From Anadara kagoshimensis (Eukaryota > Mollusca > Bivalvia > Arcoida > Arcidae): a stretch of 64,000 bases of DNA. The notes under the pieces were generated by a model that worked only from the letters and a program-made list of their open reading frames with translations, was not told where the DNA came from and made no database searches. The position numbers and the translations under genes were made by a program. The stretch is from positions 18,569,033 to 18,633,032 of the forward strand of contig CM037865.1 of assembly GCA_021292105.1 (NCBI GenBank), in the 5' to 3' direction. Shown here in pieces: positions 31,600 to 61,634 of the stretch. Position 1 is the first letter of the stretch. Each line of letters opens with the position of its first letter.

Positions 31600-32337
31600 G
31601 CTTGTACCGGTTAAAGATTTATTATGTAGACACTGGTTCAATGATATATGGTTACAACAGTCTGTTTCTGATACAAAATATTTTAGGCATCTTTACCAGT
31701 GTTATAAAGGATAACTTTTTACAAACTTCTTTTTCATTTTTTAATAATTCTTCAAAGTGTGACTTGTATAGACATATAGTTGATAGGTTCTATTTACAAT
31801 TTTATTTACGTAAACCTTTGTCATATAAATACCAAAAATACTGTGTCAATACAGATTGTCATCACATGATTTATTAATTGAAAAGGGAAGGTATAATAAT
31901 ATAGAAAGAAACAGAAGGGTGTGTTTTTGTAAATCAAATGAAATTGAAGATGTTTTTTCACTTTGTTTTAATTTGTCCTTACTATTTAAGTTTTTGTAAA
32001 CAATATACAAAACAATATTACTGGGTTAGTCCATCTGTTTTCAAGCTAGTTCAACTTTTTAGTATTCAAAATTCAAAACAATTAAGAAATTTAGCAAAAT
32101 ATTTATTTGAAGCAGTGTTGCTAAGAAAATCTTATGTCACTTAATTATTATGTACTTTCATATTATGTATTTTCAATAGACAAACTTAACAATGTATAAA
32201 GTAATATTTATTTATGTTAATCCTCCCATGTGAATATTATTATTATTATCATTATTTATTTATTTGTTCTTCATACTTTTCAAATTTTATGTTTGCCTAT
32301 GATTTGTTACTTATGGCTGAATAAAGAAAGAATGTCA
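31600..32337 (+). mobile_element. LINE 3' end, 5'-truncated
   Basis: Open pieces encode KCDLYRHIVDRFYLQFYLRK, then RRVCFCKSNEIEDVF, VLICPYYLSFCKQYTKQYYW and IQNSKQLRNLAKYLFEAVLL. The 'C..C......H.....CP.Y......Y' arrangement is typical of the extreme C-terminus of reverse transcriptase ORFs of invertebrate LINEs. One frame change lies near 31960. The 3' tail ends GCTGAATAAAGAAAGAATG, exactly where the 13-bp satellite begins. The clade is not assigned. Confidence 0.7.
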
Positions 32338-35300
32338 CATGTATATAGTATGTACACCCATCACATACACCCATCACATGTATAGTATATACACCCATCA
32401 CATACACCAATCACATGTATATAGTATATACACCCATCACATACACCCATCACATGTATATAGATATACACATCACATACACCAATCACATGTATATAGT
32501 ATATACACCCATCACATACACCCATCACATGTATATAGTATATACACCCATCACATACACCCATCACATGTATATAGTATATACACCCATCACATACACC
32601 AATCACATGTATATAGTATATACACCAATCACATACACCCATCACATGTATATAGTATATACACCCATCACATACACCAATCACATGTATATAGTATATA
32701 CACCATCACATACATCAATCACATGTATATAGTATATACACCCATCACATACACCAATAACGTATATAGTATATACACCCATCACATGTATATAGTATAT
32801 ACACCCATCACATACACCATCACATGTTATTGTATATACACCCATCACATGTATATAGTATACACCCATCACATGTATATAGTATAAACCCATCACCACA
32901 CCAATCACATGTATATATTATATACACCCATCACATACCCATCACATGTATATAGTATATACACCCATCACATGTATATAGTATATACACCCATCACATG
33001 TATATAGTATGTACACCATCAATACACCCATCACATGTATATAGTATATACACCCATCACATACACCAATCACATGTATATAGTATAACACCCATCACAT
33101 GTATATAGTATATACACCCATCACATGTATATAGTATACACCCATCATGTATATAGTATATACACCCATCACATGTACTAGTATGTACACCCATCAATAC
33201 ACCCATCACATGTATATAGTATATACCCATCACATACACCCATCACATGTATATAGTATATACACCCATCACATGTATATAGTATGTACACCCATCAATG
33301 CACCCATCACATGTATATAGTATATACACCAATCACATGTATATAGTATATACACCCATCACATACACCAATCACATGTATATAGTATATACACCCATCA
33401 CATACACCAATCACATGTATATAGTATATACACCCATCACATACACCAATCACATGTATTGTATATACACCCATCACATGTATATAGTATATACACCCAT
33501 CACATACACCAATCACATGTATATAGTATATACACCCATCACATAATCCAATCACATGTATATAGTATATACATCCATCACATACACCAATCACGTATAT
33601 AGTATATACACCCATCACATGTATATAGTATATACACCCATCACATACACCAATCACATGTATATAGTATATACACCCATCACATGTATATAGTATATAC
33701 ACCATCACATACACCAATCAATGTATATAGTATATACACCCATCACATACACCAATCACATGTATTGTATATACACCCATCACATGTATATAGTATATAC
33801 ACCCATCACATACACCAATCACATGTATATAGTATATACACCCATCACATAATCCAATCACATGTATATAGTATATACACCCATCACATACACCAATCAC
33901 GTATATAGTATTACACCCATCACATGTAAATAGTATATACACCCATCACATACACCAATCACATGTATATAGTATATACACCCATCACATGTATATAGTA
34001 TATACACCCATCACATACACCAATCACATGTATATAGTATATACACCCATCACATACACCAATCACATGTATATAGTATATACACCCATCACATGTATAT
34101 AGTATATACACCCATCACATGTATATAGTATTTGCACATATCACATACACCCATCACATGTATATAGTATGTACACCCATCAATACACCCATCACATGTA
34201 TATAGTATATACACCCATCACATACACCAATCACATGTATATAGTATATACACCCATCACATACACCAATCACATGTATATAGTATATACACCCATCACA
34301 TGTATATAGTATATACACCCATCACATGTATATAGTATGTACACCCATCAATACACCCATCACATGTATATAGTATATACACCCATCACATACACCAATC
34401 ACATGTATATAGTATATACACCCATCACATACACCAATCACATGTATATAGTATATACACCCATCACATGTATATAGTATTTGCACCCATCACATACACC
34501 CATCACATGTATATATAGTATATACACCCATCAATACACCCATCACATGTATATAGTATAAACACCCATCAATACACCCATCACATGTATATAGTATATA
34601 CACCCATCACATACACCCATCACATGTATATAGTATATACACTCATCACATACACCCATCACATGTATATAGTATATACACCCATCACATGTATAGTATG
34701 TACACCCATCACATGTATATAGTATATACACCCATCACATACACCCATCACATGTATATTGTATATACACCCATCACATACACCCAATCACATGTATATA
34801 GTATATACACCCATCACATACACCCATCACATGTATATGTATATACACCCATCACATGTATATAGTATATACACCCATCACATGTATATAGTATGTACAC
34901 CCATCATACACCCATCACATGTATATAGTATATACACCCATCACAACACCAATCACATGTATATAGTATATACAACCATCACATACACCAATCACATGTA
35001 TATAGTATATACACCCATCACATACACCAATCACATGTATATAGTATATACACCCATCACATGTATATAGTATATACACCCACAATACACCAATCACATG
35101 TATATAGTATATACACCCATCACATACACCAATCACATGTATTGTATATACACCCATCACATGTATATAGTATATACACCCATCACATACACCAATCACA
35201 TGTATATAGTATATACACCCATGACATAATCCAATCACATGTATACAGTATATACACCCATCACATACACCAATCACGTATCTAGTATATACACCCATCA

Positions 35301-38300
35301 CATGTATATAGTATATACACCCATCACATACACCAATCACATGATATAGTATATACACCCATCACATGTATATAGTATATACACCCATCACATACACCAT
35401 CACATGTATATAGTATATACACCCATCACATACACCAATCACATGTATATAGTATATACACCCATCACATGTATATAGTAATAACATCATGTAATAGTAT
35501 TTGCACATATCACATACACCAATCACATGTATATAGTATGACACCCATCAATACACCCATCACATGTATATAGTATATACACCATCACATACACAATCAC
35601 ATGTATATAGTATATACACCATCACATACACCAATCACATATAGTATACACCCACATGTATTATAGTATATACACCCATCACATGTATATAGTATATACA
35701 CCCATCACATGTATATAGTATTTGCACACACACACATCACATGTATATATAGTAATACACCCATCATACACCCATCACATTATATAGTATAAACACCCAT
35801 CAATACACCCATCACATGTATAGTATATACACCCATCACATACACCCATCACATGTATATAGATATACACTCATCACATACACCCATCACATGTATATAG
35901 TATATCACCCATCACATGTATAGTATGTACACCATCAATACCATCACATGTATATAGATATACACCCATCACATACCCATCACATGTTATAGTATATACA
36001 CCCATCACATACACCATCACATGTATATAGTATATACACCCATCACATACACCAATCACATGTATATAGTATATACACCCATCACATGTATAGATATACA
36101 CCATCAATACACCTCACATGTATATAGTATATACACCCATCACATACACAATCACGTATAAGTAAATACCACCCATCACATGATATAGTATATAAACCCA
36201 TCACATGTATATAGTATGTACACCATCAATACACCATCACATGTATATAGTATATACACCCATCACATACACCAATCACATGTATATAGTATATACACCC
36301 ATCACATGTATATAGTATAACACCCATCACATGTATATAGATATACACCCATCACATGTATAGTATATACACCCATCACATGTATATAGTATGACACCCA
36401 TCAATACACCCATCACATGTATATAGTATATACACCCATCACATACACCATCACATGTATATAGTATATACACCATCACATGTATATAGTATGTACACCA
36501 TCAACACCCATCACATGTATAGTATAACACCAATCACATGTATATAGTATATACACCACATACACAATCACATGTATATAGTATATACACCCACACATAC
36601 ACCAATCACATGTATATAGTATATACACCATCACATACACCCAATCACATGTATGGTATATACACCCATCACATGTATATAGTATATACACCCTCACATA
36701 CACCAATCAATGATATAGTATATACACCCATCACATATCCAATCACATGTATATAGTATATACATCCATCACATACACCAATCACGTATATAGTATATAC
36801 ACCCATCACATGTATATAGTATATACACCCATCACATACACCAATCACATGTATATAGTATATACACCCATCACATGTATATAGTATATACACCCATCAC
36901 ATACACCAATCACATGTATATAGTATATACACCCATCACATACACCAATCACATGTATTGTATATACACCCATCACATGTATATAGTATATACACCCATC
37001 ACATACACCAATCACATGTATATAGTATATACACCCATCACATAATCCAATCACATGTATATAGTATATACACCCATCACATACACCAATCACGTATATA
37101 GTAAATACACCCATCACATGTAAATAGTATATACACCCATCACATACACCAATCACATGTATATAGTATATACACCCATCACATGTATATAGTATATACA
37201 CCCATCACATACACCAATCACATGTATATAGTATATACACCCATCACATACACCAATCACATGTATATAGTATATACACCCATCACATGTATATAGTATA
37301 TACACCCATCACATGTATATAGTATTTGCACATATCACATACACCATCACATGTATATAGTATGTACACCATCAATACACCCATCACATGTATATAGTAT
37401 ATACACCCATCACATACACCAATCACATGTATATAGTATATACACCCATCACATACACCAATCACATGTCTATAGTATATACACCCATCACATGTATATA
37501 TTATATACACCCATCACATGTATATAGTATGTACACCCATCAATACACCCATCACATGTATATAGTATATACACCCATCACATACACCAATCACATGTAT
37601 ATAGTATATACACCCATCACATACACCAATCACATGTATATAGTATATACACCCATCACATGTATATAGTATTTGCACCCATCACATACACCCATCACAT
37701 GTATATATAGTATAAACACCATCAATACACCATCACATATATAGTATAACACACCATCAATACACCCATCACATGTATATAGTATATACACCCATCACTT
37801 ACACCCATCACATGTATATAGTATATACACTCATCACATACACCCATCACATGTATATAGTATATACACCCATCACATGTATAGTATGTACACCCATCAA
37901 TACACCCATCACATGTATATAGTATATACACCCATCACATACACCCATCACATGTATATTGTATATACACCCATCACATACACCAATCACATGTATATAG
38001 TATATACACCCATCACATACACCCATCACATGTATATAGTTATACACCCATCACATGTATATAGTATATACACCCATCACATGTATATAGTATGTACACC
38101 CATCAATACACCCATCACATGTATATAGTATATACACCCATCACATACACCAATCACATGTATATAGTATATACAACCATCACATACACCAATCACATGT
38201 ATATAGTATATACACCCATCACATACACCAATCACATGTATATAGTATATCACCATCACATGTATATAGTATATACACCCATTACATACACCAATCACAT

Positions 38301-38395
38301 GTATATAGTATATACACCACATCACATCCAATCACATGTAGTATATTACACACACATGTAATAGTATATACACCCATCACATACACCCATCACAT
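32338..38395. repeat. Satellite built on a 13-bp module (26- and 39-bp units)
   Basis: Modules CATGTATATAGTA, TATACACCCATCA and CATACACC(A/C)ATCA alternate. Rare variants recur with a longer period near 3.19 kb (for example ACATCCATCACATACACC at 33571 and 36762, and CACATAATCCAATCACATG near 33846 and 37040). The segment 35300-36750 has many single-base losses. The right edge is the assembly gap, so true length is unknown. Confidence 0.95.
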
Positions 38396-39395: not shown

Positions 39396-42300
39396 CTATA
39401 TGGGAGGATATATATTGAACATCTAGTGAAGTCACCTCCGCTCTATGGGAGGATATATTATCAACATCTAGTGAAGTCACCTCTGCTATATGGGGGTATT
39501 TATAATCAACATCTAGTGAAGTCACCTCCGCTATATGGGAGGATATATATTGAACATCTAGTGAAGTCACCTCCGATATATGGGAGGATATATAATCAAC
39601 ATCTAGTGAAGTCACCTCTGCTATATTGGGGTATTTATAATCAACATCTAGTAAAGTCACCTCCGCTATATGGGAGGATATATATTGAACATCAAGTGAA
39701 GTCACCTCCGCTATATGGGAGGATATATTATCAACATCTAGTGAAGTCACCTCTGCTATATTGGGGTATTTATAATCAACATCTAGTGTAGTCACCTTTG
39801 CTATCCTTGGGTATTTATAATCAACATCTAGTGAAGTCACCTCTGCTATATGGGGGTATTTATAAACAACATCTAGTGAAGTCACCTTTGCTATATGGGG
39901 GTATTTATAATCAACATCTAGTGAAGTCACCTCCGCTATATGGGAGGATATATAATCAACATCTAGTGAAGTCACCTCTGCTATATGGGGGTATTTTATC
40001 AACATCTAGTGAAGTCACCTTTGCTATAAGGGAGGATATATAGTCACATCTAGTGAAGTCACCTCTGCTATATGGGGTATTTATAATCAATATCTAGTGA
40101 AGTCACCTTTGCTATACGGGAGGATATATAATCACATCTAGTGAAGTCACCTCTGCTATATTGGGGCATTTATAATCAACATCTAGTGTATCACCTTTGC
40201 TATACGGGGGGATATATAATCAACATCTAGTGAAGTCACCTCTGCTATATGGGGTATTTATAATCAACATCTAGTGGAGTCCCTTTGATATACGGAGGAT
40301 ATATAGTCAACATCTAGTGAAGTCACCTCTGCTATATGGGGGTATTTAAATTATATCTAGTGAGTCACCTTTGCTATACGGGAGGATATATATTGAACAT
40401 CTAGTGAAGTCACCTCCGCTATATGGGAGGATATATAATCAACATCTAGTGAAGTCACCTTTGCTATACGGGAGGATATATAATCAACATCTAGTGAAGT
40501 CACCTCTGCTATATTGGGTATATATAATCAACATCTAGTGAAGTCACCTCTGCTATATGGGAGGATATATATTGAACATCTAGTGAAGTCACCTCCGCTA
40601 TATGGGAGGATATATTATCAACATCTAGTGAAGTCACCTCTGCTATATTGGGGTATTTATAATCAACATCTAGCGAAGTCACCTCCGCTATATGGGAGGA
40701 TATATATTGAACATCTAGTGAAGTCACCTCTGCTATATGGGAGGATATATAATCAACATCTAGTGAAGTCACCTCTGCTATATGGGGGTATTTATAATCA
40801 ACATCTAGTGAAGTCACCTCCGCTATATGGGAGGATATATAATCAACATCTAGTGAAGTCACCTCTGCTATATGGGGGTATTTATAATCAACATCTAGTG
40901 AAGTCACCTCCGCTATATGGGAGGATATATAATCAACATCTAGTGATGTCACCTCTGCTATATGGGGGTATTTATAATCAATATCTAGTGAAGTCACCTT
41001 TGCTATACGGGAGGATATATAGTCAACATCTAGTGAAGTTACCTCTGCTATATGGGGGTATTTATAATCAATATGTAGTGAAGTCAACTCCGCTATATGG
41101 GAGGATATATTATCAACATCTAGTGAAGTCACCTCTGCTATATTGGGGTATTTATAATCAACATCTAGTGAAGTCACCTTTGCTATACGGGAGGATATAT
41201 AATCAACATCTAGTGAAGTCACCTCTGCTATATTGGGTATTTATAATCAACATCTAGTGAAGTCACCTCCGCTATATGGGAGGATATATAATCAACATCT
41301 AGTGAAGTCACCTCTGCTATATGGGGGTATTTATAATCAACATCTAGTGAAGTCACCTTTGCTATACGGGAGGATATATAGTCAACATCTAGTGAAGTCA
41401 CCTCTGCTATATGGGGGTATTTATAATCAATCTAGTGAAGTCACCTTTGCTATACGGAGGATATATAATCAACATCTAGTGAAGTCACCTCTGCTATATG
41501 GAGGATATATATTGAACATCTAGTGAAGTCACCTCTGCTATATTGGGTATATATAATCAACATCTAGTGAAGTCACCTCTGCTTTATGGGGGTATTTAAT
41601 CACATATAGTGAAGTACCTTTGCTATACGGAGGATATATAATCAACATCTAGTGAAGTCACCTCTGCTATATTGGGTATTTATAATCAACATCTAGTGAA
41701 GTCACCTCCGCTATATGGGAGGATATATATTGAACATCTAGTGAAGTCACCTCCGCTATATGGGAGGATATATATTGAACATCTAGTGAAGTCACCTCTG
41801 CTATATTGGGGTATTTATAATCAACATCTAGTGTAGTCACCTTTGCTATACGGAGGATATATAATCAATATCTAGTGAAGTCACCTCTGCTATATGGGAG
41901 TATTTATAATCAACATCTAGTGAGTCACCTTTGCTATATGGGAGGATATATAGTCAACATCTAGTGAAGTCACCTCCGCTATATGGGAGGATATATATTG
42001 AACATGTAGTGAAGTCACCTCCGCTATATGGGAGGATATATTATCAACATCTAGTGAAGTCACCTCTGTATATGGGGGTATTTATAATCAACATCTAGTG
42101 AAGTCCCTCCGCTATATGGGAGGATATATAATCAACATCTAGTGAAGTCACCTCTGCTATATGTGGGTATTTATAATCACATCTAGTGAAGTCACCTTTG
42201 CTATACGGGAGGATATATAGTCAACATCTAGTGAAGTCACCTCTGCTATATGGGGGTATTGATAATCAACATCTAGTGAAGTCACCTCCGCTATATGGGA

Positions 42301-45231
42301 GGATATATAATCAACATCTAGTGAAGTCACCTCTGCTATATGGGGGTATTTATAATCAACATCTAGTGAAGTCACCTTTGCTATAAGGGAGGATATATAG
42401 TCAATATCTAGTGAAGTCACCTCTGCTATATGGGGGTATTTATAATCAATATCTAGTGAAGTCACCTTTGCTATACGGGAGGATATATAATCAACATCTA
42501 GTGAAGTCACCTCTGCTATATTGGGGTATTTATAATCAACATCTAGTGTAGTCACCTTTGCTATACGGGGGGATATATAATCAACATCTAGTGAAGTCAC
42601 CTCTGCTATATGGGGGTATTTATAATCAACATCTAGTGGAGTCACCTTTGATATACGGGAGGATATATAGTCAACATCTAGTGAAGTCACCTCTGCTATA
42701 TGGGGGTATTTATAATTAATATCTAGTGAAGTCACCTTTGCTATACGGGAGGATATATATTGAACATCTAGTGAAGTCACCTCCGCTATATGGGAGGATA
42801 TATAATCAACATCTAGTGAAGTCACCTTTGCTATACGGGAGGATATATAATCAACATCTAGTGAAGTCACCTCTGCTATATGGGTATATAATCAACATCT
42901 AGTGAAGTCACCTCTGCTATATGGGAGGATATATATTGAACATCTCTAGTGAAGTCACCTCCGCTATATGGAGGATATATATCAACATCTAGTGAAGTCA
43001 CCTCTGCTATATTGGGGTATTTATAACAACATCTAGCGAAGTCACCTCCGCTATATGGGAGGATATTATTTAACATCTAGTGAAGTCACATCTGCTATAT
43101 GGGAGGATATATAATAAACATCTAGTGAAGTCACCTCTGCTATATGGGGGTATTTATAATCAACATCTAGTGAAGTCACCTCCGCTATATGGGAGGATAT
43201 ATATCAACATCTAGTGAAGTCACTCTGCTATATGGGGGTATTTATAATCAACATCTAGTGAAGTCACCTCCGCTATATGGGAGGATATATAATCAACATC
43301 TAGTGATGTCACCTCTGCTATATGAGGGTATTTATAATCATATCTAGTGAAGTCACCTTTGCTATACGGAGGATATATAGTCAACATCTAGTGAAGTTAC
43401 CTCTGCTATATGGGGTATTTATAATCAATATGTAGTGAAGTCACCTTTGATATACGGGAGGATATATATCAACATCTAGTGAAGTCACCTCTGCTATATT
43501 GGGGTATTTATAATCAACATCTAGTGAAGTCACCTTTGCTATACGGGAGGATATATAATCAACATCTAGTGAAGTCACCTCTGCTATATTGGGTATTTAT
43601 AATCAACATCTAGTGAAGTCACCTCCGCTATATGGGAGGATATATAATCAACATCTAGTGAAGTCACCTCTGCTATATGGGGGTATTTATAATCAACATC
43701 TAGTGAAGTCACCTTTGCTATACGGGAGGATATATAGTCAACATCTAGTGAAGTCACCTCTGCTATATGGGGGTATTTATAATCAACATCTAGTGAAGTC
43801 ACCTTTGCTATACGGGAGGATATATAATCAACATCTAGTGAAGTCACCTCTGCTATATGGGAGGATATATATTGAACATCTAGTGAAGTCACCTCTGCTA
43901 TATTGGGTATATATAATCAACATCTAGTGAAGTCACCTCTGCTATATGGGGGTATTTATAATCAACATATAGTGAAGTAACCTTTGCTATACGGGAGGAT
44001 ATATAATCAACATCTAGTGAAGTCACCTCTGCTATATTGGGGTATTTATAATCAACATCTAGTGAAGTCACCTCCGCTATATGGGAGGATATATATTGAA
44101 CATCTAGTGAAGTCACCTCCGCTATATGGGAGGATATATATTGAACATCTAGTGAAGTCACCTCTGCTATATTGGGGTATTTATAATCAACATCTAGTGT
44201 AGTCACCTTTGCTATACGGGAGGATATAAAATCAACATCTAGTGAAGTCACCTCTGCTATATGGGAGTATTTATAATCAACATCTAGTGAAGTCACCTTT
44301 GCTATATGGGAGGATATAGTCAACATCTAGTGAAGTCACCTCCGCTATATGGGAGGATATATATTGAACATGTAGTGAAGTCACCTCCGCTATATGGAGG
44401 ATATAATATCAACATCTAGTGAAGTCACCTCTGCTATATGGGGGTATTTATAATCAACATCTAGTGAAGTCACCTCCGCTATATGGGAGGATATATAATC
44501 AACATCTAGTGAAGTCACCTCTGCTATTTGTGGGTATTTATAATCAACATCTAGTGAATCACCTTTGCTATACGGGAGGATATATAGTCAACATCTAGTG
44601 AAGTCACCTCTGCTATATGGGGGTATTTATAATCAACATCTAGTGAAGTCACCTCCGCTATATGGGAGGATATATAATCAACATCTAGTGAAGTCACCTC
44701 TGCTATATGGGGGTATTTATAATCAACATCTAGTGAAGTCACCTCCGCTATATGGAAGGATATATAATCAACATCTAGTGATGTCACCTCTGCTATATGG
44801 GGGTATTTATAATCAACATCTAGTGAAGTCACCTTTGCTATACAGGAGGATATATAATCAACATCTAGTGAAGTCACCTCTGCTATATTGGGTATTTATA
44901 ATCAACATCTAGTGAAGTCACCTCTGCTATATGGGGGTATTTATAATCAACATCTAGTGAAGTCACCTACGCTATATGGGGATATAATCAACATCTAGTG
45001 AAGTCACCTCTGCTATATTGGGTATTTATAATCAACATCTAGTAAAGTCACCTCCGCTATATGGGAGGATATATATTGAACATCTAGTGAAGTCACCTCC
45101 GCTATATGGGAGGATATAATATCAACATCTAGTGAAGTCACCTCTGCTATATGGGGGTATTATAATCAACATCTAGTGTAGTCACCTTTGCTATACGGGG
45201 AGGATATATAATCAACATCTTGTAAGTCACC
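39396..45231. repeat. 45-bp satellite with a 2.36-kb longer period
   Basis: The unit begins CATCTAGTGAAGTCACCTCT and continues GCTATATGGGGGTATTTATA to ATCAA, about 130 copies. Types differ at CCTCT/CCTCC/CCTTT, ATATGG/ATACGG and GGGGTATT/GAGGATAT. Markers such as ATTGGGTATATATAATC recur at 41541 and 43901, and GTGTAGTCACC at 41831 and 44197, giving about 2360 bp or 52 units. Frames stay open on both strands because 45 is divisible by three; this is not coding. Confidence 0.95.
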
Positions 45232-45232
<1 letters not shown>

Positions 45233-47482: not shown

Positions 47483-48119
47483 AGTGTAAGTTAAACGATT
47501 TTCGATAATTTGAGTATTAACAGTAAATGCCGTAATTAAAACAATGTCGAAAACCCCGTGATCGTACATGGTCTCCTTTTCGAGATATACGTGGTGAAAC
47601 CTCCAATTTTGCACCTGGAAAAATTTGTAATCAAGCCTGTACAGGCAACTTCCGGTTTTCGACGATCACACTTGTGACGTCATCAATAAGTACATGTAGC
47701 GCGAAAGTGCGCGTGATGCACTAACAACTGTCTGGGTTACAACGACTGAAAGGTGCGCTTCAGCTCTCCAATCAACGGCGGAATTTACGGGAATACAAAA
47801 TACTGACAGACTTCAAGGTGTAAACATGACAGAACATTCAGTAAATTTTACGAGCCATACGAAACTGCGAGGTGGAAAATGTATCAGATTCACAGTGGCG
47901 GATCCAGGATTCTATGTTAGGGGGGGCACACTTATTAACCTTAAATTAACCTTACATTACCCATGATTCTATGTTAGGGGGGTGGACACACTGACAAATT
48001 TTTAAATTGTGTTTGGGGACAAAGGCTCTGTAAAGCAGTTCATATCCCGTGTTGTATACTAACTAGTGTGCTGAGGAAGGAGCAGGTGATGGTTGCGACA
48101 TTGGCAAGTGAGATTTTTG

Positions 48120-49700
48120 GGGTCTTCAGATTTTAATTTTCAGATTCACTCAGAGGATTTAAGAAAATCATTTTTCTAGGGTGTTTTCTAGCATATGCAT
48201 CCACGATTTCATCTAGGTTAAGAGGTATATCTTTGTGAACAAATAAGAGAACTAAGGCATTAAACCTGTCCTCTCCCATGGTACTCCTTTCAGCACTTTT
48301 TACATATTTCAAAGAAGTTTGATCGTTCTACTCCGCTTGTTGTAACTGAGTGTAAAAGTAGCAGATGCAGAATAACATTGATATTTGGGAACATTTTTGG
48401 AGTAAACACACTGCTCTGTAGAGTATCGGTAATAGAACTTGGTTTCTTTTCTTCATTTCTCCATGTCTGATTCCAAAGTTTGATTTCTTTGGAAAAATTG
48501 TCAGGTGAAGGCATGTCAGACTGGAATAATTCTAAGATAGATTCAGTAGTTTGTTGATCTAGATTGACTAGATTGCTGGGAAGGAGATTTAAAGTTTTTA
48601 CTGCTTTATGTGTGAGGTCATTAAACCTCAAGGATAGTTGCTGATTTAATGAATCTACAAAGAAAGATATATATTTAGGCGATAATATTCAGATGGAGAG
48701 TTTGCAGAAATATTGGACCTTTGGGTTTGACGACCACATATTCTAGGAATTGAAATTGTTGTGTTTGCTTTGTTTGCCATTACGACACAGGTTTCAAAAA
48801 GGGACTCGAACTCCCTTGTATTATTTCTTGCCTCACTTATAACATTACGTACATGAGAAACCATTCCATATCCCTGAATGACATCAAGAGAGGTACCTTG
48901 AAGCTGAACACTTAAACCTCTGATATATCCAAAGAAGTGGATGACCGTGTCAAATGCCACTATGAAAACCGAGTCAGTAATTTTCTTCATAAGACCATAC
49001 GCTTCACCAGATGTCTTCGTGTCCCAATCAGTCTCTCTCATGGATATATTATCCAAACACTCCAGAATGCACTCGTACAGTTCGTGAAATTCTATGAGTG
49101 TTGTATGTTTTTAACCCAGCGTGTCTGACAGAACAACTTTATTTTCTTTTTCTTCTTCGCATTATCTTGATGCAACATATTCCACGAGTCAATTACGGCT
49201 TCTAGTCGTCTGCTCCGCTTTGGGGAGTATTTAAAGAATATGCCGATCTGTTTAACAGTGTCTAGCATAAGATGGACTTCTTTGACATTACAAGCTTTGC
49301 AAAGAGCCAAGTTAAGATCATGACTGCAACAGTAGAAGTAAGAAGCCTTGGGTGACAACTGAATAAATCTCGCAGCACAACCAGAATGCTTGCCTGCCAT
49401 GTTACCAGCCCCATCCATTGTTTGTGATCGACAATTTTGTATGTCAAGGCCTAACTTGGTGAGACACTCAACAACATTATTGCAAATAGCTTCTCCAGTT
49501 ATCTTCTCACAAGAGACAAATTCCAACAATCTCTCTATTGGTTTGTTGTTTTGAGTATAACGGACAACTAATCCGAGCTGTTCCCAATTACTGCTGTCCG
49601 TTACTTCATCACACTGATATCCATAAAATGGACCACATGGTTGAGACTTTATTTCGTCAACTATCAGAGACTGAATATATTCTTTTATGCAAGCAGTAGC
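48120..49700 (-). pseudogene. hAT transposase catalytic and dimerisation region, broken
   Basis: Pieces in several frames: FYGYQCDEVTDSSNWEQLGL (first Asp near 49590), SQTMDGAGNMAGKHSGCAAR (second Asp), YFYCCSHDLNLALCKACNVK, then LLLLHSVTTSGVERSNFFEI (catalytic Glu) and ALVLLFVHKDIPLNLDEIVD as the C-terminal end. This is the ZMYM1-like hAT layout. At least three frame changes separate the pieces, so the copy is dead. Confidence 0.85.
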
Positions 49701-49804
49701 TCATTCTGAGCAGTCTTAGAAGTATAGCGAGCATTCTTTGCGCATGTTTTTAGATGGTTTTCAATAGTTTTGTCACCAGCATTAACTCGCAAATCTAAAA
49801 GTGC

Positions 49805-50640
49805 TTAAAAATTGCCTTGATTAAAACTAGATGATGTTTCATCATCTCTATGCCCTCGTAATGCAATGCCTTGTCTACCACAAAATTCTAAACATTTAAT
49901 TATTGATTTCAATATTTCCCTGTTTCTTGACACGGTGAAGGAATTTGAGTCAGATATTGAAACATCAATTCGTGCTGCTGGATTTTTGTTTGTAGTTTTA
50001 AAGGCAAGTAACTTTGCCATCGAACTTTTATGATAATCACAAGTAGAATGAGATGAAAGGTCGGCCTGTGCATCTTTCCAGTTTTGATATGATTCTGATA
50101 TTAATTTTTTTGGACGACGATGTGAAGTATCAGGAAAGAAGACGCACGCCAAACAAAACAAGCCGTCACACTTTTTGGAATATGCAATGAAGTCAAACTT
50201 CAAGAACCATTCATGAAGACAAGATCTGTTTACAAACCCACACTTTCGCGATTTTAATTTGTACTGCTTTGGAGGAAATTTATAGACTTGACTTGGTTTT
50301 CTGTTTTCAATCACGTACTCAATATCTCCATCTGAAAATTTCGCATTTGGAGATGTGTAATCCGATATGTCCTTTTCACTTGTACATGGCCCTTCAGAGG
50401 GTAAATCATCAGGACCATAGGAAGATGTGCAGAGGTTTGAAAACTTTTTGGAATCATCCGAAGGTGATTCTGTAATGTGGCAAGTGTCAAATGGATTTGA
50501 CTTTATACATGGGAACGTGATTGTGCTTGATGTGTCTTCACGTGATAAATCAGATAATTGATCATTTGGAGAATATTCATTGCAAATTTTGCTTTTTGTC
50601 AAATTTAAGCATGGTACAAAATGATTTGGCTCCCAGTTTT
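49805..50640 (-). pseudogene. TTF-type zinc finger part of the hAT fusion gene
   Basis: Reads on without a stop from the OTU His motif through an acidic Ser-rich linker (SPNDQLSDLSREDTSST) into a zf-TTF domain: KLKSRKCGFVNRSCLHEWFL, CDGLFCLACVFFPD, then HSTCDYHKSS. This is the DNA-binding front end of ZMYM1-like hAT transposases. It ends at GHRDDETSSSFNQGNF; the next part needs another frame. Confidence 0.85.
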
Positions 50641-51337
50641 CAAATCGTTATTTGTTATGTGAGTCCACATGATGTGAAGAATAGTATCAGGATCTTTGTT
50701 TTCAGAGAGAGGTTTAATTATCCCGTTATTAATATTTCTGTTGATAGCAGGGTAATCACTCTTGGATAATGCTTTGCACAGGTATTTTACATGCATTTGC
50801 AAGTGCAAAAAGATGAACAACAGAACAATATGTTCCACTTTTGATGGTTTTGAGAATTTCCCTTTCAAGAACTTTATGAACATTGCCAAAAACAACATTT
50901 TCATCACTGGCGGATGACATAATAATATAATCAATGCAAGGTTCACTTGTGCCAAGCATTTTTTTATAAGTATTTTCATCGCAATATAGATGAAAATTTG
51001 ATGTTAATTCAACTATAGTTCGAACACGGCATTCGATGTGATGCGATTCAGACCCATATAAGGCTAATGAAATGGACCCGAAAAGGCAATTACCGTCACC
51101 ATATACTTTAACTGGAGTTAAATCGCTAGGTGCGTCAGGTGGATAAAGACTCCTTGCGACAACATCTTCTTCTATGGATGGAATTTTGACATTTTGCAAT
51201 GGAGATGGCAGGGGTGTTCTTTTAATGAATTGCGTTTGAAAATTAACTGCAAATTTAAATGTTTGCCAGCCTTTTGAACTTGCTGATAAAAGCTGATTGT
51301 ATATTTTGGTAAAATGATCAAAATGGAATGAAGTCAT
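50620..51337 (-). pseudogene. OTU-like cysteine protease domain of the hAT fusion gene
   Basis: Starts at ATG 51337 (MTSFHFDHFTKIYNQLL). KVYGDGNCLFGSISLALYGS holds the OTU Cys motif (D-G-N-C); SYHIECRVRT-like 'SHHIECRVRTIVEL' follows, then VVHLFALANACKIPV. The catalytic His motif NWEPNHFVPCL lies near 50640, in the same frame as the zinc-finger part. One base-scale shift occurs near 50757 and a compensating one near 50660. OTU enzymes remove ubiquitin; the arrangement also resembles vertnin-like proteins. Catalytic Cys and His are both present. Confidence 0.78.
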
Positions 51338-51594
51338 CTTTAATATTATACTTTATTTGATTTTAGTATTTTGTTAAATACAAGACTTGAAGTAATATAC
51401 GTGGGATAACTATGGCAATAATGCAACAATATCTCGTCACTCAGTAATGTTTTCAAATTAAATGATGCGTAACTCAGTTTAAAAATTAATCTCAGAAAAG
51501 TCTGAATAATAATAAGTGACAAGAACTATGCGACTACTAACACGAAGTGCATCCAGATCAGACTTTCGGAGTCACAAAGTCATTCGCCGGCGTT

Positions 51595-51850
51595 CTTTAC
51601 CACTTCAGCGTTCTTTCACTTCAGTGAAGTCAAACGCTGACCGCCAGAGGGTGTATTCAATACCCCCTCTGGCGGTCAGCGTTCTTTTATAGCTTCATAC
51701 ATATTCTCACATTTATGTGAGATTCAATGGGTGTACCACTTCAGTGAAGTCGAACGCTGACCGCCAGAGGGGGTTATTTTCGCCCTCTGGCGGTCAGCGT
51801 TCTTGTACATGTATCGCTTCAGACATATTCTCAAGTTTATGTGAGAATGG
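51595..51850. repeat. Two tandem 120-bp hairpin units in the hAT leader
   Basis: Each unit starts CACTTCAGTGAAGTC and has inverted arms ACGCTGACCGCCAGAGG / CCTCTGGCGGTCAGCGT with a loop of about 15 bp (arms near 51633 and 51666; near 51753 and 51784). The second is 120 bp downstream of the first. They lie between the right end of the hAT element and its start codon. Confidence 0.85.
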
Positions 51851-54800
51851 CGTTTCTTTACCACTTCCATAGCCGTGTGCTAATTCATATTTATATTTAC
51901 ACAATGCAATTTTATTTTATGGATTTTACGAATTCTTATTAAGAATAACAAGATTTAGTTCTATAATTTTAGGGGGGGGCACAGGCCGGGTGTGCCCCCG
52001 TCTGGATCCGCGCCTGATTCATCAGAAGAAACTGTCTGACAGGGTTAATGCTGTACATGGTAGTGTATATTGTAATTTTTACGAATTTTCTCATTTTTTT
52101 TACAGCACATCTACAGTGTATTGTCATTTTTTTTATTTCCTTGCGTTTGAGGGTCAATGTTTAAAGGAAGTAGGTGTCTATGTGTCACAACCACACCACA
52201 TGCACGTATTAGTACAGGTTACCGGTTCCACATACCACAATCATGACAATGACCAGCTGACAATCCTATTATTTTGCCTTATACGGGTACAAATTCCAAT
52301 GCATTCTGGGGTTTTAGGTTTACATTTGCATAGGTTGTTATAACCACTTGCTTGTTGAGAATATAATATAGTGCGATATGAAGTTACTGGTTGGCTACTT
52401 GCCTTAGGTTTGAACCCCATAATCCTTACTTTCACAACTTGAGCTGATCAGCTAGTGTCAGTTTCAACATGTCAAAACATCATTTCTTAATTATAATAAA
52501 AATAATAATAATTATAAATCTGTTAAAGTCTAGTTTTAAAACATCACCACTCAGGATTATATTTATTGTAAATTGAAAAAAATGTATTTGATTATTCTTT
52601 TCTGTTACATGGGTATCTAAGGAAGACATTCAACATATCCATCATTAATCAGTTTGTGCTGTTTAATAGGTATACAGTGGGGAGGATGTACAATTTTGTA
52701 TCAGGCAGATGAATTGAAATATCCATAATCTGTGAATACCCAACCTCATGTGTGTATGCAAATCACTTGTTTTATATCCTGACTGGATAATAGCTGTTAT
52801 CCAATTTGTGGTCAAGACAGTCTAATGACCATCTTGTTCTCTGGCAAATATGACATTGTCCAACTTTCTTTCCAGAAAAACTTATTACACATGTATATGG
52901 TTAATCTGCTGTTGTATCTATCTGTTTTACCCTACCATACACTCTTGATAGCATGTCCTACACCAGGTATCAATTATGTGTCTAATTATGTTGGGTTAGA
53001 TTTAAATGTAAAACAAAATGTTTTCAAACAATCAAAATTCATTGCACTTTAAATTAATTGGTATACATAATTATGACATAGCAGAAATTAATGGTTAATT
53101 ATTTCATTGTTTTCAATGAAGCCTTTTTTAATACTTAAAATATTTCTCTTTTCAGATAAAACAAATTGCATAAAAAGATAATGAAGGCTTAACAAATACA
53201 GTATAGCAGTCACATGATGGAATGTACATTGATCTGTCATGGTAACAGTAGGGTTCAAATTGACAAGATTTTGACAGTCCTTGTAATTAATGTTATTGTT
53301 TATTTAACTACTTCAGTAGATTTGGGACATATACTCAGGTGAGTGTTAATTAAGGCATATGTGACTCTTGTTTAATATATATAAATAAGGGGTTCAAAAT
53401 TTCAAACATATTTTTTGAATGAAAGGTCCAGGACCTTTTGCCTTTTTTCATAGGTTCAACATAATTTTTTGAAAGACAAATATCACTGAAAGTTCCATGT
53501 GCAATTGAGTTGTAACATTTGAAAATATGTAATCATTTAAAAAAAAGTAGTATTTTCTTGTTAAGAGAAAAATTTTGGGTCCATCAGACTTTTCAAGTTT
53601 TAACTTTTAACTTTTCAAGGGTCCCAACACCCAATATATCCCTGACTAAGACAATTTTGAACCTCTGTATATTCACAGGTCTCACAGGCCAAATATGGCC
53701 AAATTCTATTTTTCATTATATTGAATAATTCAGAGTTGTATATTTATACTCAGTGCAAACAATGTTGGGGCCCACCAGAGTATATGGGAATCACCCTGTT
53801 CATCTGTCCAAATATAATGTACACTCCATATCTTCTATGTCTATGGATCAATTTTAATAAAACTTGCAACAAATGAAAACAACATGAGACAATGTGTTGC
53901 ATACCAAATTAAGGTGAATATAACAAGGAATAAATCTTAAAAATGACAACTAGCAAGATGGGGGGGGGTTGTCTAAAGAGCTGCTCTAGTTATGTCAAGT
54001 AAACTTAATATATTGTGTGATTATTATCTTACATTCATGACAAATTCTTGTTTATTTTGGCTATTGTGTGATTTGTATGATCAAATTCAATAGAAAATAC
54101 AGTGTATTCATTTATATTTTGATAGGTACACATTCATTGCAATACAGATTCAACCTGATATTGATAGAGAATTCAAAATTCAGAGAGGAAGTGAAACACC
54201 CGAGACAAGTTTAAAGGAAAAGAAATTATGTATAATATTTCATTTTGTACTAGTCAGCATGCATTTAATTATTTAAATTTTTTGTAGTGGTTTAATTACT
54301 TCAATATACACAGCTTAGCATTTAAAGATGACATACTGGACATGAGACAGCTGAACATCAAGTGCAAGGTCTAGATTCTCAACTACAGTTTTGCAACCAC
54401 TTGACCAGATTGTTCAATAACTTTACCAAAATGCAAAAAAGATAAATTATATGTTAGCACAAATTTGTCTAATTGAAGAGTAGCAAGGTATTTTCATTAC
54501 ATGAATTTGTTTATGTATCATACATGTATTAAAATTATTGTTGAGAAATAGTTTGTTTTTACTACCAGTACTCAGAGTTTTTCATAGATCTTACTCAAAA
54601 ACTATCTGATTGAAATTAATTTGGAAGGGGGGGGGGGTAATCAGATTTTATGGCACAGGTTCACTGCCACAAGTACATGTAACAGGTACCCACAATATTG
54701 GTACTGGCTAACTTCATCTACACAGCTATCCATAAATAACTATACAATTTTATAGTCAAATTCCATCCATATTGCCAATATATCAGAGGTTTTGCAGTAT

Positions 54801-61288: not shown

Positions 61289-61634
61289 CAGAGGCGAATC
61301 TAGAACTTTCGGAACGGGGGTACAATGTGAGAGCCGAAGGCTCGAACCTTCTAGGGGGTCCGGGGGCATGCTCCACCAGCAATTTTTTTTAAAAATGGCG
61401 CAAAAATCCTGCATTCTGGTGCAATATTAGCAACATAAAAGGGGGGTATATGCCCCCCTACCCCTCCCGCTGAATCCCCCACTGAGAGAGAGAGCTATTG
61501 ACTGATGAGACCCCCTTATGGTAATATAACAACCCATTTCTGTATTTCTGAACCCTCGTTTCTGGAAGGCGCTCGCACCTAGCATTGATATAATTCTCAA
61601 CCCCACCTTTCAAAAAATTATGGATCCACCCCTG
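61289..61634. mobile_element. Small nested hAT-like element
   Basis: Ends CAGAGGCGAATCTAG and the reverse of the right end CAGGGGTGGATCCAT match at 11 of 15. 346 bp, non-coding, with C/G-rich runs. No matching flanks were seen. Confidence 0.45.

Follow-up and report, generated by a model that had tools for sequence, protein, structure and literature searches.

An OTU domain and a hAT transposase within one element

The window, by which we mean the whole stretch of 64,000 nucleotides analysed here, contains on its minus strand a broken copy of a 4124-bp hAT5-type transposon (47893–52016), the limits of which are given by 28 full-length copies with identical end bases. We refer to this transposon as family A. 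Its ends are terminal inverted repeats, CAGTGGCGGATCCAG on the 3' side, next to the transposase (47893–47907, plus strand), and CAGGCGCGGATCCAG on the 5' side, next to the OTU part (52002–52016, minus strand), and 13 of their 15 bases match each other. The element is flanked by the target-site duplication ATTCA on the left (47888–47892) and on the right (52017–52021). A pattern built from both ends matched the window four times at up to two mismatches, compared with 0.04 matches expected, and two of the four are the ends themselves. The remaining two end-like sequences, with two mismatches each, lie at 61470–61634 and perhaps derive from a short, related element. Upstream of the family A gene, on the side of the 5' end (51617–51850), lies a hairpin-forming repeat, AACGCTGACCGCCAGAGGG..., in two copies spaced 120 bp, perfect or nearly so, which might serve as subterminal binding sites or as a promoter. 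Elsewhere in the window, long tandem arrays occupy 32335–38345 and 39396–45232, with units of about 39 bp whose GC skew is extreme (-0.55 to -0.62), and with a 45-bp unit repeated about 131 times.

The gene of the window copy is interrupted by frameshifts, and its OTU part is split over three frames. The first frame (50756–51337, minus strand; 193 codons open from the first ATG) encodes the N terminus and the Cys part of the OTU domain. The second frame contributes the middle of the domain (50648–50755, approximate limits set by comparison with the intact protein) and lies within an open frame at 51003–50605. The third (49805–50647) encodes the OTU His motif, a linker, a C..C finger and the start of the transposase. 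The DUF4371 part follows at 49092–49700, with YQCDE at 49619–49605, MDGAGN at 49418–49401 and CCSHD at 49331–49317. CQTRW (49130–49116) stands just ahead of the C-terminal part of the transposase, which is present in pieces at 48133–49110 and includes GVERS (48334–48320) and the stop codon (48135–48133). In a six-frame reading of the window, the Cys motif GDGNCLF was located at 51100–51080 and the His motif NWEPNHF at 50638–50618, both on the minus strand, and the pattern G[DN]G[ND]CL occurred a single time across the six frames. The order of motifs on this strand is GDGNCLF, NWEPNHF, the C..C finger, YQCDE, MDGAGN, CCSHD, CQTRW and GVERS, down to 48320.

A first-pass annotation of this DNA had proposed an OTU protease domain fused to a TTF-hAT transposase, in which the frame with the His motif runs without a stop into a zf-TTF finger and the Cys motif lies upstream, on the same strand and inside the hAT ends. 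Both positional statements were borne out: the His-motif frame is free of stops for 280 residues (50647–49805), through the C..C finger CDGLFCLAC at 50170–50144, and the Cys motif falls within 47893–52016. The C..C motif, which we read by eye, is present, and no zf-TTF model matched it in Pfam. The proposed extent of 48120–51337 does contain the gene, the limits of which we correct to 51337–48133, within an element of 47893–52016. The Pfam scores of the window's pieces fall just short for OTU (23.2 bits, cut-off 23.3) and below the cut-off for DUF4371 (28.8 bits, cut-off 32.1), and a structure prediction of its OTU piece from the single sequence had a mean pLDDT of 33.5.

Copies of family A in the genome

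Searching the genome (1.115 Gb, 36 contigs), we found at least 28 full-length copies of family A, including that of the window, as well as fragments (77 rows, from the best 35 of 462 candidates scored). Four entries that occupy the same places as others were left out of the 28 (L001, L003, L004 and L007, equivalent to L009, L010, L011 and L012), as were the incomplete L033 and L034. The two element searches scored the best 35 of 563 and the best 35 of 462 candidates, so that all copy counts are lower bounds. The end points of all 28 full-length copies coincide to the base, and every one of these copies holds both the OTU domain and the transposase. Identical 5-bp flanks were observed in 26 of the 28 copies, compared with 0 of 140 control comparisons at offsets of 100–500 bases. 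The flanking 8-mers differed in 28 of 28, which rules out the 8-bp target-site duplication that is typical of ordinary hATs. Elements of the hAT superfamily with 5-bp duplications are described as hAT5 (PMC9004415, PMC12730594), and family A is assigned to the hAT5 type on the basis of its 5-bp duplications.

One unbroken frame of 1069–1070 codons from the first ATG was present in 13 of the 28 copies, which together encode four distinct proteins. The intact frame contains, in order, the OTU domain (Cys84, His240), the zinc finger and the hAT transposase, with a linker of about 100 residues between the OTU domain and the finger. In Pfam searches, the intact protein matched DUF4371 at 59.7 bits (cut-off 32.1), and the hAT dimerisation domain PF05699 scored 12.5 bits, below its cut-off of 21.4 (E 0.13). 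From the motifs we assigned D578, D643 and E1006 as the catalytic residues and C671-x-x-H674 as the C/DxxH ahead of the catalytic E, which is described as a mark of hAT transposases (PMC9587614). Family A is a hAT5-type transposon that encodes a single protein composed of an N-terminal OTU domain, a linker, a zinc finger and a hAT transposase.

The copies are nearly identical, with a median pairwise difference of 0.07% and a largest difference of 0.41% among the 28, and several are identical. The window copy departs from the column majority of the 28 copies by 13 substitutions and 22 gap columns. Within the coding part, 13 of the 15 broken copies have lost a single base at one or more sites, and some of these deletions are perhaps assembly errors. 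L008, L014, L023, L027 and others have zero substitutions and carry small deletions in the gene; deletions outnumber substitutions, which may reflect assembly error. The coding changes (21 replacement, 7 silent and 3 stop) each occur in one copy only and are uninformative on selection. That every variable coding site is private to one copy gives the picture of one recent burst, and the lack of visible constraint among these changes is as expected after insertion.

Taken alone, the broken frames of the window copy would also fit a chance neighbourhood in which an OTU element had inserted beside or into a hAT element. Several lines of evidence refute this explanation, to which we assign practically no likelihood. 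The two parts share a single frame in 13 of the 28 copies. Among A-type loci, 50 of 55 OTU loci are followed within 4 kb, on their own strand, by an A-type transposase. The five without a transposase comprise four short pieces and one whole OTU domain at C9:48814882; of the 55 A-type transposase loci, 5 have no OTU match (counts from the A-type rows among the best 150 of 200 OTU candidates and the best 106 of 340 transposase-core candidates). Outside family A, as described below, 18 pairs have the same order within 3 kb, with none in either of the other arrangements. The proposed fusion is supported, and of the two outcomes that the first-pass annotation had named as speaking against it, neither was observed: none of the 28 full-length copies lacks the OTU part, and the OTU part was not found to be an independent element inserted here.

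Related families with and without the OTU domain

Genome searches with the OTU domain and the transposase core, and then with family B parts and DUF4371, exposed two further families, B and C (candidates scored in the searches with family B parts and DUF4371: 150 of 159, 76 of 358 and 150 of 210). Family B has at least nine copies of about 6.6 kb at 99–100% identity, one of them split and one cut off at the OTU-side end, and its ends are CAGGCCCGTA. It consists of an OTU exon and a transposase exon (DUF4371, 60.6 bits), and both parts are present in nine of nine copies. The 5-bp flanks were identical in six of the eight testable copies of family B, one of the six lying in a TA repeat; a seventh copy matches after a one-base shift, and the eighth does not match. 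Families A and B share 31.1% identity over 190 residues of the OTU domain and 30.9% over 466 residues of the transposase core, and these near-equal values indicate that both parts diverged alike. In family C, 733 residues are open from the OTU domain through DUF4371, within C1:49870040–49872240, and the genome searches give a 1068-residue frame for either part. The same OTU–hAT order is therefore present in at least three families of the Anadara kagoshimensis genome.

We paired 70 non-A OTU loci with 105 non-A DUF4371 loci, after merging rows by hand and leaving out A-type rows. Within 3 kb, 18 pairs had the transposase downstream of the OTU domain on the same strand, none had it upstream and none had it on the opposite strand. 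Within 15 kb, there were 20 pairs in this order, 0 with the transposase upstream and 4 on opposite strands, two of the four coming from an inverted element pair on C19. This pair (C19:39332600–39339437) is palindromic, with two OTU–hAT copies in opposite orientation within 7 kb and with OTU and DUF4371 matches in frames of 898 and 1008 residues. At C3:27110288–27119741 and C13:36976855–36986312, a short OTU match lies about 8.7–8.8 kb upstream of DUF4371 on the same strand; these loci are perhaps a further OTU–hAT family with introns or inserts.

For 85 of the 105 non-A DUF4371 loci, no OTU domain was detected among the best-scored candidates, a result that does not in itself prove absence but indicates that the OTU domain is optional. 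We read three such relatives, L038 (1.36 kb upstream) and L058 and L059 (about 2.6 kb each). One OTU-less family, with frames of 722 residues, has many identical-scoring copies and is thus also multi-copy, so the OTU domain is not needed for transposition of this kind. These relatives would be consistent with the OTU domain being a passenger that gives no help to transposition. We nevertheless consider this explanation quite improbable, as the fusion and the Cys and His residues persist across at least three families in which about 70% of the residues differ, and OTU domains are carried by other groups of transposons as well (PMC2836005).

Both a single fusion with later losses and repeated fusion fit the trees that we built. 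The tree of six transposase cores joins the three families without the OTU domain in one cluster (99/99), with A and B outside this cluster, and family C was not placed (support 23/46). When five OTU domains were compared in an unrooted tree, B paired with C (99.5/100) and L036 with L057 (99.2/100), and A fell in between. L036:1161–1826 (C13:41.75 Mb) and L057:2654–3313 (C3:27.26 Mb) are OTU domains of the type seen in family A, placed beside or within an open reading frame of another kind. The two loci share motifs around GHGKG, at least four matches score the same as L057 in the OTU search, and the reading frame of L036 had no Pfam match. They probably represent another kind of transposon. 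L036 holds the OTU domain nearest to that of family A among the best-scored candidates in this genome, whereas the neighbouring reading frame is of a different type and is not hAT by the searches made. The identity of the family A OTU domain is 37.6% to L036 (189 residues), 31.7% to L057, 31.1% to B and 29.3% to C.

Predicted activity and role of the OTU domain

The isolated OTU domain of intact family A scored above the Pfam cut-off of 23.3 (25.8 bits), whereas the whole intact protein scored below it (22.5 bits). Among solved structures, the family A OTU sequence matched OTUD1 (E 0.015) and OTUD3 (E 0.28). A profile of four such domains matched 15 sequences at E<=1, of which OTUD1 was the best (E 1.2e-4), followed by VCPIP1 and OTUD7B and later by A20 and OTUD5; matches other than OTU proteins included a HIT-family protein (E 0.017) and RNA polymerase entries (E 0.11 and 0.49). 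The OTU matches of this profile align over the Cys region and do not include the His region. A, B, L036 and L057 agree fully at Cys84, His240 and 26 other alignment columns, and family C also has the active-site Cys and His. Patterns for relatives matched one stretch in viral and eight stretches in prokaryote genome contigs, none of which was a relative.

We propose, with a probability of roughly 0.55, that family A is a hAT5-type transposon whose predicted OTU protease removes ubiquitin, either from the transposase in cis or from chromatin or repair proteins, and thereby raises transposition. The finger and the transposase would bind the transposon ends, and the OTU domain would cleave ubiquitin, first from its own transposase, which could then escape the proteasome. 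Alternatively, it may act at the cut ends, on repair proteins or ubiquitinated chromatin. Of the two, we favour cis-protection of the transposase over a target in repair or chromatin. The first-pass annotation had suggested that a deubiquitinase joined to the transposase could stabilise it or work against silencing by the host. Removal of ubiquitin would raise transposition, and this benefit would explain why the fusion has been retained along with the Cys and His of the OTU domain. The presence of the same OTU–transposase combination in at least two distant families of one genome suggests that acting on the host ubiquitin system may help such elements to jump. Two published proposals lend support by analogy: the VTD deubiquitinases of Helitrons, which are active in vitro, were proposed to prevent degradation of proteins on which transposition depends (PMC9741609), and the authors who described Ginger elements proposed that their OTU domain takes part in DNA repair (PMC2836005). 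In favour of ubiquitin removal we count the intact frames (13 of 28), the 0.07% median difference, the pairing of 50 of 55 loci, families B and C, the 18 ordered pairs, the conservation of Cys and His, OTUD1 as the best-matched structure and the equal divergence of A and B in both parts. Against it we count an OTU score near the Pfam cut-off, solved-structure matches that miss the His region, the replacement of Asp by Asn in B and C, the success of OTU-less relatives, the lack of constraint among family A changes and the pLDDT of 33.5.

The replacement concerns the residue three before the Cys, a candidate third catalytic residue, which is Asp in A, L036 and L057 and Asn in B and C; no residue after the His was assigned to this role. 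The replacement could indicate that the OTU domain is a non-cleaving module that, by binding a repair factor or ubiquitinated chromatin, guides repair or the choice of target. However, the active-site Cys and His are kept across A, B, C, L036 and L057 at 24–42% overall identity, and we regard loss of cleavage as unlikely. Somewhat less likely still is that the domain is a self-processing or other protease, or a SUMO or NEDD8 isopeptidase, that, for example, frees the transposase from the linker. The linker of about 100 residues in family A leaves room for such processing and the substrate cannot be read from sequence, but the best-matched structures, OTUD1, VCPIP1 and OTUD7B, are those of deubiquitinases.

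We compared family A with known systems. The hAT5 group (Kapitonov and Jurka 2007, as cited in PMC12730594; PMC9004415) shares the hAT transposase and the 5-bp duplications, although, compared by description only, no OTU domain appears in the accessible parts of its descriptions (PMC12730594, PMC9004415). OTU domains do occur in Ginger transposons, as the first-pass annotation had noted: Ginger1 likewise carries an OTU cysteine-protease domain on the protein of a cut-and-paste transposase, but its transposase resembles a Gypsy integrase and its OTU or Ulp1 domain is C-terminal, in contrast to the hAT transposase and N-terminal OTU domain of family A (PMC2836005). Membership of Ginger1 is ruled out, as Pfam gives hAT models and no integrase model and the OTU domain is N-terminal. 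Helitrons and Helentrons with OTU or VTD domains also have a transposon protein with a ubiquitin-protease domain, but they are rolling-circle elements with Rep/helicase, without a DDE transposase and with a different domain order (PMC9741609). Transposons of the Kolobok superfamily carry accessory enzymes, with no OTU domain mentioned in the accessible part of that account (PMC9587614). Among the top-ranked papers of an open-access library we found no account of an OTU domain on a hAT transposase; Repbase Reports lie outside this scope, and such an element has possibly been published there. Vertnin (VRTN), a vertebrate host gene that is not known to carry a transposase, may resemble family A in its OTU-like region and in the residues that precede it.

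A more tentative possibility is that the OTU domain is an exchangeable module of animal DNA transposons that hATs gained more than once and that counters a ubiquitin-based restriction of transposases. Repeated gain would be suggested by the OTU domain of family A, which lies closer to its counterparts at the non-hAT loci L036 and L057 than to the OTU domains of families B and C. If this were true, the ubiquitin system would defend against cut-and-paste transposons at a level that has so far gone unrecognised. Unrelated transposons, including Ginger1 and Helitrons, repeatedly carry proteases of the ubiquitin system, and family A offers a clean case: a 4.1-kb element that is nearly free of mutations, with the whole frame intact in 13 of the 28 full-length copies, and with OTU-less relatives available for comparison within one genome. 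Family A makes a possible role of deubiquitination in transposition testable with one active-site mutant.
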